From the NCBI GenBank assembly GCA_038093515.1, contig JBBPSI010000068.1:1-64000 (forward strand): 64,000 nt of DNA, read 5' to 3'. Made by a program: the position numbers and the translations under genes. The notes beneath the pieces are model-generated. The model ran no database searches. It was not told the origin of the DNA and saw only the letters and a list, made by a program, of their open reading frames with translations. This DNA is from Butyriboletus loyo. Taxonomy: Eukaryota > Basidiomycota > Agaricomycetes > Boletales > Boletaceae. Each line of letters opens with the position of its first letter. Within the stretch, counting starts at the first letter, position 1. Shown piece after piece: positions 1 to 3,872 of this stretch.

Positions 1-373
1 TCAAGTGACTTTAGAGTCACGTTATCGTGGGAATTAATTCCCATAAAGGCACCGCTTGAGTTTATCCTAAGTGCCTTCCCTTCGGACTATCCAAAGGGTT
101 AACGTTGACAGCACGTGACCGTGAGAATTCTGCGGAGTTTGATCGGCGTGGGTCACATGCTATACTCTAGTTGTTGCTTGGTAAGGCGCACAGCCGTGGG
201 ATTCGGGAATGCCCCGGCCCGATTTACGGACCGCTCCGGCTAGCAGCAGGACCGGATTTGCGGTTACTTCCTAATCGGGACAGCTGGTCCGTGCGCGGCC
301 CAACCGGTCTAGCGAAGCAAATACAAAAATGGTCTGGCCACACTAGGAGAGGCTGATAGTAAAAAGTGTATAC

Positions 374-430
374 TAGGGGGTAATGGAGTGTGCGCTCCAT
401 CTGATGAGACCTAAAGGTCGAAACCCCCTA
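374..430 (+). ncRNA. Type-III hammerhead ribozyme, copy 1
   Basis: Every element of the hammerhead fold is present. Stem III is open and 8 bp (TAGGGGGT at 374-381 with ACCCCCTA at 423-430). The cleavage triplet is GTA, with cleavage predicted after A382. Stem I is 6 bp (ATGGAG 383-388, CTCCAT 395-400) closed by TGTGCG. The core CTGATGA is at 401-407. Stem II is GACC/GGTC (408-411, 416-419) with loop TAAA, followed by GAA 420-422 and A423 pairing with T381. There is no mismatch in any stem. Entry through stem III makes it type III, as in plant retrozymes and viroid-like RNAs. Activity is inferred from the fold. Confidence 0.9.
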
Positions 431-582
431 AATTGTGGGATACCCCCCATAATTAATCGTTATCAATTACGTTCTGACATTACGTAATGAGCCGAATAAG
501 GCACGATTAAGCTCGCCTAATCCCATAAGCCGAGTCGAGTACAGGTGGGTTGGTTACGCTAGTCACGTGACCCGCTCACCTC

Positions 583-599
583 ACCAGCCTTCGGCTGGT
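583..599 (+). other. Stable hairpin near the 3' end of the subtelomeric unit
   Basis: ACCAGC (583-588) pairs with GCTGGT (594-599) around a CTTCG loop. The hairpin lies 12 bp before the point where the later copies switch to telomeric repeat, and it recurs at 1508-1524 and in the third copy. It could mark or protect an RNA 3' end; that role is inference. Confidence 0.6.
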
Positions 600-616
600 T
601 CGGCTCGTTCACTAAC

Positions 617-1541
617 GGTCCAGGGATCGGGGGGAGGGGTAAATGAAGTCACGTGGCAACACGTGTCCGAGGGGCCCAAAGTGCATAGCTGGTGCCTGGC
701 GTGCCTGTGACGCGCGTGATTGATCTCGATTCAAGTCACGTGACCAGCACAGCATGAATAAGAGATAGGGCGAAGGGAAAAGGGGCGTTCTGCCTAATAC
801 ACCCTGTTCCCACGGTACCTGAAAGGTTTCAATCAGAGGTCACGTGAGTTACCCATCACGTGATACGCCTAGCTGGTAAAACAGCGGGCTGGCCCGAACG
901 AGCGCACACTCCGGCCCCCTCCAAGTCAAGTGACTTTAGAGTCACGTTATCGTGGGAATTAATTCCCATAAAGGCACCGCTTGAGTTTATCCTAAGTGCC
1001 TTCCCTTCGGACTATCCAAAGGGTTAACGTTGACAGCACGTGACCGTGAGAATTCTGCGGAGTTTGATCGGCGTGGGTCACATGCTATACTCTAGTTGTT
1101 GCTTGGTAAGGCGCACAGCCGTGGGATTCGGGAATGCCCCGGCCCGATTTACGGACCGCTCCGGCTAGCAGCAGGACCGGATTTGCGGTTACTTCCTAAT
1201 CGGGACAGCTGGTCCGTGCGCGGCCCAACCGGTCTAGCGAAGCAAATACAAAAATGGTCTGGCCACACTAGGAGAGGCTGATAGTAAAAAGTGTATACTA
1301 GGGGGTAATGGAGTGTGCGCTCCATCTGATGAGACCTAAAGGTCGAAACCCCCTAAATTGTGGGATACCCCCCATAATTAATCGTTATCAATTACGTTCT
1401 GACATTACGTAATGAGCCGAATAAGGCACGATTAAGCTCGCCTAATCCCATAAGCCGAGTCGAGTACAGGTGGGTTGGTTACGCTAGTCACGTGACCCGC
1501 TCACCTCACCAGCCTTCGGCTGGTTCGGCTCGTTCACTAAC
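617..1541 (+). mobile_element. Complete 925-bp hammerhead-bearing unit abutting CCTAA repeats (copy 2)
   Basis: This is the one complete unit if it is taken to end at the telomeric junction. It starts at GGTCC (617) and ends in ACTAAC (1536-1541), where copy 1 continues into GGTCC but this copy continues into CCTAA repeats. The ACTAAC tail shares CTAAC with the telomeric repeat. The first 309 bp (617-925) are unique to this unit in the window and hold five of its seven CACGTG motifs. The RNA sense of the ribozyme reads toward the CCTAA array. That is the orientation expected if an RNA 3' end anneals to the G-rich overhang of a left chromosome end and primes reverse transcription. No ORF of note is present. 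I infer a non-autonomous retroelement. Confidence 0.7.
1299..1355 (+). ncRNA. Type-III hammerhead ribozyme, copy 2
   Basis: It is identical to the copy at 374-430, shifted by exactly 925 bp. Predicted cleavage follows A1307. Two cleavages, here and in copy 1, would release a 925-nt linear RNA from a transcript of the tandem; such RNA could in principle be circularised. Confidence 0.9.
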
Positions 1542-1580
1542 CTAACCTAACCTAACCTAACCTAACCTAACCTAACCTTA
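1537..1580 (+). repeat. Interstitial telomere-like array, CCTAA x7
   Basis: Seven perfect CCTAA units run from 1541 to 1575, followed by a degenerate unit. The strand is C-rich on the + strand, as at a left chromosome end, and the array directly follows the hammerhead unit. The period is 5 (TTAGG on the other strand), not the common fungal TTAGGG. The array marks a former or captured chromosome end. Confidence 0.8.
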
Positions 1581-2059
1581 TTTCATACACCCACTACCTA
1601 GGGTTAGGATCAGGGGTTATTGCATTGAGTGATATTTAATATAAAATATGCAAACATGTGGACAGTTTTTTGAGCCACTGTAAGAAAGCTGAATTCCTCA
1701 TTGACCACCAGGTTAAGAGTGTCCAGGTATGAATGACAAATCAGTCCATCAACTAGGTCCAGTGATTGCATTGGAGATGGTGGTGCGCCTGTTTGATGTG
1801 GTTGCAGTATGGACTATGCATGCTTGTCTGTCAGACCAATGTTGAATGACTTGTGTCTCCTTATCATAAGTGATGGTAAACTCTCTGGAATTGGTGACAT
1901 GGACCTCATTGACCATGGTGAATTTATGTTTGTGTCCTGCATCATTCATGTTAGCATGGGTGCATTGAAAGTGTTGTGCATAAGTACGTCGACGTCGCCA
2001 TGCACAATGTGTTGAATGTTTATAATACATAGGCCAATGTGGCCATACAGAACATGACT

Positions 2060-2880
2060 GTTGATGATGGAGATAGCTTTCAGTGGCTGTCCAGTAGCTT
2101 TCACCCTCATATGGAAGTAGCTTTCTGTGGCTATACAGTCTCTTGACTAATGTGGAAGTAGCTTTCTCTGTGGCTGTTCAGTAGCTTTCTCCCTTATATG
2201 GAAGTAGCTTTCAGTGGCTGTGTATTGCCCCCTGCACATGGTCACCATTTGTGTACATATACTTGGAATAATAGTCCAAGTGAATCAAGTTAAATTTAGG
2301 GGCTATTGTACATGGCAATGTCAATGTTGCCATGCATGATCTTGACATTACTTATTGGATGTCTACACTATTGCAGTGGGTATAGACTAAAACTAGAAGG
2401 TGTGGTAGCTTGCATAACATGTTGATATTACCATGCAAGGATTGGAGCATAGGCTGCATAACACATCGACGTCACCATGCAAGGTCAATGATACTCTTGG
2501 TGCTTTCCAAGGACAGTGTGACATGATCCCAAAGTGGAAGTAGCTTTTGTGACATGACCCAAAAGTGGAAGTAGCTTTTGTCACACAATCCCAAAGTGGA
2601 AGTAGCCTTTGTCACACAATCCCAAAGTGGAAGTAGCTTTTGTGACATGACCCAAAAGTAGAAGTAGCTTTTGTCACACAATCCCAAAGTGGAAGTAGCT
2701 TTCTGTGGCTGTCCCATAGCTTTCAGTGGCTGTGTATTGGCCCCTGCACATGTCACCATCCATATACCCTTGGATAATAGTCCAAGTATGACCTAGTGAG
2801 TGAATCAAGTAAACTTAGGAGCTACCATGCATGGTGACATCGATGTCACCATGCACAATCTTGACAAGTATAATGAATGT
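2060..2880. repeat. Minisatellite block 1 (31-bp period) inside a larger duplicated segment
   Basis: The motif gaagtagctt recurs at 2537, 2568, 2599, 2630, 2661 and 2692, a strict 31-bp period, with spacers alternating between 'tgtgacatgacccaaaag' and 'tgtcacacaatcccaaag' types. Around it, a segment containing 'gtattg', 'cctgcacatg' and 'aatagtccaag' occurs at about 2200-2330 and again at about 2720-2870, offset by 512 bp. The open frames across it are artefacts of the repeat. I see no gene. Confidence 0.8.
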
Positions 2881-3081
2881 CTCACAGTTTGGGACTTGGA
2901 CTAGACAGGTGCAAATATACTGTAGGCCAGGATACAGCTGTTGCAGTGGAGCATAGACTAAAACTAGAATGGCAGCTTGCATAACACATCGACACCACCA
3001 TATACATACAAAGATTGGGATGTTATGCTATAGTGCTAATACTGGCTCACATCAATGTTGCCATGCATGACAGTGTGACAC

Positions 3082-3300
3082 AAACCCAAATGTGGAAGTA
3101 GCTTTCGTGACACAACCCAAATGCAGAAGTAGCTTTCGTGACACAACCCAAATGCAGAAGTAGCTTTCGTGACACAACCCAAATGCAGAAGTAGCTTTCG
3201 TGACACAACCCAAATGTAGAAGTAGCTTTCGTGACATGACCCAAAAGTGGAAGTAGCTTTCTGTCACAACCTGAATGGGGAAGTAGCTTTCTGTTGGAGC
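3082..3300. repeat. Minisatellite block 2 (31-bp period, about 7 units)
   Basis: The gaagtagc motif falls at 3095, 3126, 3157, 3188, 3219, 3250 and 3280. Most units share 'cgtgacacaacccaaatg', so this is a homogenised variant of the array at 2.5-2.7 kb. It ends about 30 bp before the truncated hammerhead copy. Confidence 0.85.
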
Positions 3301-3330
3301 TACGCCACCTAGTCCCTGGTTTAGAATATT

Positions 3331-3850
3331 AGGGTTAACGTTGACAGCACGTGACCGTGAGAATTCTGCGGAGTTTGATCGGCGTGGGTCACATGCTATA
3401 CTCTAGTTGTTGCTTGGTAAGGCGCACAGCCGTGGGATTTGGGAAGCCCCGGCCCGATTTACGGGCCGCTCCGGCTAGCAGCAGGACCGGATTTGCAGTT
3501 ACTTCCTAATCGGGACAGCTGGTCCGTGCGCGGCCCAACCGGTCTAGCGAAGCAAATACAAAAATGGTCTGGCCACACTAGGAGAGGCTGATAGTAAAAG
3601 TGTATACTAGGGGGTAATGGAGTGTGCGCTCCATCTGATGAGACCTAAAGGTCGAAACCCCCTAAATTGTGGGATACCCCCCATAATTAATCGTTATCAA
3701 TTACGTTCTGACATTACGTAATGAGCCGAGTAAGGCACGATTAAGCTCGCCTAATCCCATAAGCCGAGTCGAGTACAGGTGGGTTGGTTACACTAGTCAC
3801 GTGACCCGCTCACCTCACCAGCCTTCGGCTGGTTCGGCTCGTTCACTAAC
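3331..3850 (+). mobile_element. 5'-truncated hammerhead-bearing unit abutting CCTAA repeats (copy 3)
   Basis: Homology to the 925-bp unit begins abruptly at 3331 (equivalent to position 95 of copy 1) and runs to ACTAAC at 3845-3850. It then passes into CCTAA repeats at exactly the same base as copy 2. It differs from copies 1 and 2 by a few substitutions and single-base indels, so it is older. Truncation at the outer (5') end with a fixed 3' end is the usual mark of incomplete target-primed reverse transcription. One indel breaks the 61-codon ORF of the other copies, while the ribozyme is untouched. Confidence 0.75.
3608..3664 (+). ncRNA. Type-III hammerhead ribozyme, copy 3
   Basis: All stems, loops and core bases match the other two copies although the surrounding unit has diverged. 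Stem III is 3608-3615 with 3657-3664, stem I is 3617-3634, and the core CTGATGA follows at 3635. Its conservation in the most diverged copy suggests constraint, although the sample is three copies. Confidence 0.88.
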
Positions 3851-3872
3851 CCTAACCTAACCTAACCTAACC
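3846..3872 (+). repeat. Interstitial telomere-like array, short CCTAA run
   Basis: The sequence is CTAAC followed by three to four CCTAA units and then AT-rich DNA. It has the same orientation and the same junction with the hammerhead unit as the array at 1541. It is read as an older chromosome end buried by later additions. Confidence 0.75.

Follow-up and report, generated by a model that had tools for sequence, protein, structure and literature searches.

The window analysed here, the first 64,000 nucleotides of contig C68 (JBBPSI010000068.1) in the 30.3 Mb, 420-contig assembly of Butyriboletus loyo (GCA_038093515.1), opens with a short repeated element that we call family C, and each copy of this element contains a predicted hammerhead ribozyme of type III. 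Two copies stand head to tail at the very start of the contig and a truncated one follows (Table 1); a search of the genome found at least three copies, all on this contig. The 5' end of the second copy is set from its tandem joint with the first alone. A sequence-only reading of the stretch had placed the ribozyme in a telomere-adjacent, non-coding repeat of a basidiomycete, and this description was borne out: no open reading frame (ORF) beginning with ATG exceeds 58 amino acids on either strand of the unit, the longest having that length; the 3' ends abut (CCTAA)n; and Chiua virens is the sole species named among matches to a gene of the window, with matches to the reverse transcriptase described below coming from Agaricomycetes.

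Table 1. Family C copies, predicted ribozymes and associated features in the window.
Feature	Position	Strand	Remark
Type III hammerhead, copy 1	374..430	+	predicted cleavage 3' of A382
Type III hammerhead, copy 2	1299..1355	+	identical to copy 1
Type III hammerhead, copy 3	3608..3664	+	same motif; surrounding element copy 99% identical to others
Family C, copy 1	1..616	+	5' side lost at contig start; head-to-tail joint with copy 2
Family C, copy 2	617..1541	+	sole apparently full unit, 925 nt
Family C, copy 3	3331..3850	+	5'-truncated, 99% identical
3'-terminal RNA fold (predicted)	1456..1532	+	UUCG hairpin at 1508-1524; CUAACC tail single-stranded
Telomere-like tract (CTAAC)8.4	1537..1578	+	abuts 3' end of copy 2
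Telomere-like tract	3846..3872	+	abuts 3' end of copy 3

The first motif has every component of a type III hammerhead: stem III is an open helix of 8 bp (374-381/423-430), stem I (383-389/394-400) has 7 bp with its terminal U.G and otherwise 6, stem II has 4 bp (408-411/416-419), the core consists of CTGATGA (401-407) and GAA (420-422, within GAAA), and the NUH triplet is GUA with A382 as the cleavage nucleotide. Coordinates, core and stems are those given by the sequence-only reading, and RNAfold returns exactly this structure for 374-430 at -25.3 kcal/mol (z -3.75, equalled by 1 of 200 shuffles). Aligned end to end with the Rfam model Hammerhead_3 (RF00008), the motif scores 39.7 bits (E 7.9e-8, with 121 nt searched). 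A strict descriptor combining the core and three helices was matched three times in the window against once in total in 30 dinucleotide shuffles of it (1.92 Mb, both strands); the bare CTGATGA..CGAAA pattern is weak when taken alone, with three occurrences against 0.27 expected and 1 of 100 shuffles reaching three. The three 57-nt motifs were correctly noted to be identical, that in the slightly diverged third copy included, and for this reason they are not independent evidence of selection.

Some results weigh against the fold. The alignment score does not reach the RF00008 gathering cut-off of 48.5 bits, which is a database threshold and no feature of the fold; a whole-window Rfam scan at E<=1 listed no hammerhead; and a genome search with RF00008 found none among the best 68 of 5706 candidates. 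Since the latter missed even the copies in the window, we read both Rfam misses as probable losses in the fast first steps of the search. On these models the window hammerhead is real as a predicted fold, and self-cleavage of the family C RNA is predicted.

Downstream of the ribozyme, family C ends in a reverse-complement telomeric stretch. The last 110 nt (1438-1547) fold at -43.9 kcal/mol (z -4.73, equalled by 0 of 200 shuffles), and the CUAACCUAACC tail is left unpaired in the predicted structure. Copies 2 and 3 run through ..CGTTCA-CTAACC.. into their (CCTAA)n tracts, and in copy 1 CTAAC leads directly into copy 2; CCTAACCTAA occurs nine times in the window against 0.10 expected. A telomerase RNA was considered, given the template-like tail, and set aside: a template at the extreme 3' end would be odd, and the Rfam scan of the window, which missed the hammerhead too, gave no family at E<=1. 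The block at 1579-3330, between copies 2 and 3, contains minisatellites with 31-bp and 44-bp units and is 96-98% identical to sequence on C83 and on C135. At its right end lies family C, B or A, according to which of the three contigs is considered, and more than 30 additional places carry the initial ~104 nt of the block.

Families A and B, named in the preceding sentence, are relatives in layout found elsewhere in the genome. The pattern CTGATGA(8-24)CGAAA occurs 118 times against 42 for a reversed control, with repeated versions near contig ends among the matches listed, and the descriptor applied to such loci (90 overlapping sequences, 354,241 letters) delivered these two families, both with type I hammerheads, and a diverged B on contig C89. 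Their 3' ends are built like that of family C, with a hammerhead, a CUUCG-loop hairpin, a few bases and usually CTAACC. One of 24 hammerhead copies on nine contigs is cut by a contig end and the other 23 reach the hairpin-tail motif; CTAA follows in 21 of these 23 (23 of 26 when counted by hairpin-tail motifs), the two without it being the innermost A on C60 and a B on C175. Beyond CTAA lie telomere-like repeats, another element, often 5'-cut, or unrelated DNA. The 3' hairpin of family B does not surpass shuffles in stability (z -0.80). At C103:42919-42952 there is one more CTTCG..CTAACCTAAC match, possibly from another family.

In both A and B, TATA-like boxes lie 46-48 nt upstream of the hammerhead core, a placement that could allow transcripts to begin shortly upstream of the ribozyme and extend into the following element; no TATAWA/TATATA counterpart was found in family C, and we therefore claim no shared promoter. 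CACGTG is found seven times in 928 nt of C against once in 664 nt of B and not at all in 810 nt of A, a cluster that might comprise sites for basic helix-loop-helix factors.

Eight differing sequences among 15 family A hammerheads were aligned (97.2% of cells paired), and their covariation of 0.121 exceeds the 0.041 of shuffles (0 of 500 reach it) and the 0-0.048 of slid controls; at the clearest covarying pair CG, UA and AU occur in 3, 3 and 2 sequences. Pointing the other way, two pairs change on both sides and four further pair types occur, numbers no higher than in shuffles (260 and 382 of 500 attain them), and the structure was derived from the same sequences, with 14 of 18 pairs invariant. 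Covariation thus gives support for, and not proof of, selection on the family A hammerhead RNA, and the argument is inapplicable to family C.

How the copies end is informative about how they arose. A family A query of 800 nt gave 33 matches, of which 27 extend to position 797 or further, and 5' starts fall at 19 positions, one of these a contig end. Of the other six, one is interrupted by a contig end, one stops at 777 and four are internal, the same two pieces occurring on C208 and on C304. For family B, eight of nine matches extend at least to position 642 of 654, and a contig end interrupts the remaining one. Among 17 head-to-tail A/B junctions, counted without the C-C joint and without two A-A pieces that are internal, eight overlap by 1-6 nt and nine are spaced by 1-36 nt; certain junctions recur across several contigs, so that duplication of chromosome ends has probably multiplied them. 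Among contigs of known length, the 5' ends point toward the nearer end on C26, C60, C68, C81, C83, C86, C89, C128, C135 and C175, the exceptions being C316 and two inverted copies where C26 ends, in a count that omits C99, C151, C208, C218, C304, C310 and C335. Family A includes 5'-truncated copies with their 3' ends mostly kept, near chromosome ends as judged from contig ends only. None of its 33 copies begins 10 nt or less from where cleavage is predicted (H17, at position 721 of the 800-nt query), and hammerhead-cut 5' ends are accordingly not seen as copy ends in this family.

At the end of C26, near 188,641-188,679 (L084), an array turns into its own inverted copy, as a hairpin-type rearrangement, an end fusion or an assembly artefact might each produce.

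An open frame with as many as 1240 codons, matching the reverse transcriptases (RTs) of Penelope-like elements (PLEs), precedes family A, and ribozyme and PLE-type RT belong to one unit. Searches of the genome for such RTs found four places, all four with family A beside them and none on C68, so that family C has no PLE-type RT by these searches. Homologues occur in Paxillus, Dichomitus and other Agaricomycetes, and the predicted fold of one is closest to telomerase. We take RGLAMGVADSPDLAN and YGRYIDD in the homologues to be RT motifs, the core of the genome's own frame having been matched, not read. The C-terminal 241 amino acids, where the frame ends, have no Pfam match at E<=1, and no endonuclease (GIY-YIG) was detected in this part. 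A Pfam scan of that piece with nine short homologues gave no RT family; longer homologues match RVT_1, and a precomputed PF26215 label on some short ones was not reproduced by the scan. Searching PDB sequences with the profile of the homologues produced no convincing match (best E 0.25). The PLE frame was absent among the best 150 of 424 candidates in a genome search with RVT_1, and the one RVT_1 locus read of 30 (L038) proved to be a polyprotein of the long terminal repeat (LTR) type.

Five very short copies of family A contain little beyond hairpin and tail (C208:42102-42145, C304:24881-24924, C81:5037-5084, C81:7089-7130 and C151:6937-6979), and two of them lie close before the RT frame, going by its reported length. 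These copies may reflect a point at which copying tends to stop, or a terminal repeat that is partial.

The layout of family C, the same layout in A and B with mostly kept 3' ends and variable 5' ends, and the PLE-type RT frame of A together make it likely, in our judgement, that family C is a short, non-coding and non-autonomous telomere-attaching retroelement, probably copied by the enzyme that A encodes. The 3' end of the element RNA would fold so as to leave the CUAACC tail free; this tail could pair with the TTAGG overhang of a chromosome end, whose 3' end the A-encoded RT would then extend by copying the RNA, often stopping early, before telomeric repeats or further elements were added. 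Tail pairing with the overhang and extension by RT have been proposed for Terminons (PMC6431247; this and the papers below are drawn on through titles, abstracts and passages). As all 23 followed copies continue across the cleavage site as far as the hairpin-tail motif, the RNA that was copied was uncut at the hammerhead site, or re-joined. An RNA whole across this site favours a hammerhead that would separate units from tandem read-through transcripts and contribute to the 3' fold, and would not make the priming end; this role seems to us the most likely one and is the least sure part of the scheme, in which family C is a putative mobile element.

Other origins have to be set against this retroelement reading. 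Plant retrozymes carry type III hammerheads and form circles of 600-1000 nt (PMC6155905), and family C might be a fungal retrozyme whose hammerheads cut tandem transcripts into a 925-nt RNA that is circularised and copied by RT onto telomeres. The hammerheads do stand 925 nt apart in an exact head-to-tail dimer, and the unit folded as a circle is more stable than 40 of 40 shuffles (z -4.57), although strong folding is not specific to circles. We nevertheless hold this origin to be unlikely: the 3' junctions of copies 2 and 3 are telomeric, a Met-tRNA primer-binding site (PBS) was not found at positions 1-2425 with up to two mismatches, and no LTRs were seen, LTR ends and a polypurine tract (PPT) not having been searched for specifically. 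Equally tentative is the idea of a retrozyme that homes to telomeres: its non-coding RNA of 925 nt, brought to unit length or closed into a circle by canonical type III hammerheads, would parasitise the telomerase-like PLE RT and be copied directly onto chromosome ends, sometimes for more than one round so as to give head-to-tail dimers.

Family C could instead be the 3' untranslated region (UTR) of a second autonomous PLE family, unassembled or extinct, much as the family A 3' UTR is often freed of its ORF by 5' truncation, and chromosome ends may be poorly assembled in 420 contigs; the presence of family A beside all four PLE RT places, and a joint between copies 1 and 2 that suggests a complete 925-nt unit without an ORF, make this doubtful. 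That recombination among chromosome ends has spread a passive subtelomeric satellite with a relic ribozyme is rather improbable. The copies are few and nearly identical, and the block shared with C83 and C135 means that subtelomeric exchange happens, but in A and B the 3' ends are mostly kept, the 5' ends vary and the hammerheads show covariation, all of which points to copying via RNA. A DNA copy of a viroid-like RNA replicon is very improbable; such RNAs occur in fungi (PMC13343976, with 'hammerhead' nine times in its text), yet the hammerhead here is on the plus strand only, against ribozymes in both polarities as in Avsunviroidae, no other ribozyme class appeared in the whole-window Rfam scan (which missed the hammerhead too), and the telomeric 3' architecture is common to C and a PLE.

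Among known systems the closest are the Terminons, or Athena elements, of bdelloid rotifer telomeres, endonuclease-deficient PLEs that carry at their 3' end a hammerhead and, just downstream of it, a short telomeric stretch in reverse complement, and that form 5'-truncated head-to-tail arrays at chromosome ends (PMC6431247). Terminons reach 40 kb and encode RT and more, unlike the 925-nt non-coding C, and their hammerheads are minimal type I (PMC7761336) against type III in C. Family C also differs from them in the UUCG hairpin between ribozyme and tail. Coprina-type fungal PLEs, reportedly described as endonuclease-deficient by Gladyshev and Arkhipova in 2007, are matched by family A, a basidiomycete PLE-type RT frame beside telomere-like repeats, and not by C, which is without an RT frame; fungal PLEs are also said (Cervera and de la Pena, 2014) to have hammerhead variants active as monomers. 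HeT-A is without an RT of its own, attaches by its 3' end to chromosome ends and forms head-to-tail arrays, as C is proposed to do, but it carries a gag gene and we know of no hammerhead in it. It is a non-LTR (LINE-type) element of Drosophila telomeres (PMC5537684), and PLEs have been found at chromosome ends of Agaricus bisporus (PMC7473861).

Plant LTR retrozymes resemble family C in type III hammerheads repeated at less than 1 kb and a non-coding unit (PMC6155905, PMC7229834, PMC4918200), but have LTRs, PBS, PPT, 4-bp target duplications and Ty3/Gypsy-like ends where C ends in telomeric repeats. Animal non-LTR retrozymes likewise have non-coding tandem hammerhead units, with PLEs or Terminons proposed as their movers (PMC7761336), but are of type I with 150-450 bp repeats (PMC7229834), and the passages drawn on mention no telomere attachment. 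Reviews assign minimal type I to the hammerheads of PLEs and Terminons and type III to plant retrozymes (PMC7761336, PMC7229834, PMC6155905), and titles, abstracts and passages in one open-access library yielded no telomeric type III case. The earlier statement that this is not a described element class was too strong, the layout being published for Terminons (PMC6431247) and shared by the genome's own PLE-type RT frame. What is unusual is the type III form together with the small non-coding unit: the architecture is already known, the variant seems new, and a type III ribozyme in that position seems unreported in the texts consulted.

This one small genome has a PLE family that encodes an RT as well as two hammerhead families that are apparently non-coding; the three have a single 3' layout and ribozyme topologies I, I and III, a natural test of hammerhead function in telomere-attaching elements and of RNA choice by a telomerase-like RT. 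If C does move, it would be a non-coding parasite of a PLE enzyme that adds to telomeres, and to our knowledge none has been shown before. A 2020 review regarded the role of the hammerhead in such elements as a mystery (PMC7761336).

Beside the arrays on C135 (L066), C89 (L088) and C86 (L089) there are reading frames that are kinase-like or related. The Pkinase match in Pfam for the C86 frame is below the cut-off, and the N-terminus of the C89 frame resembles crinkler-type proteins.
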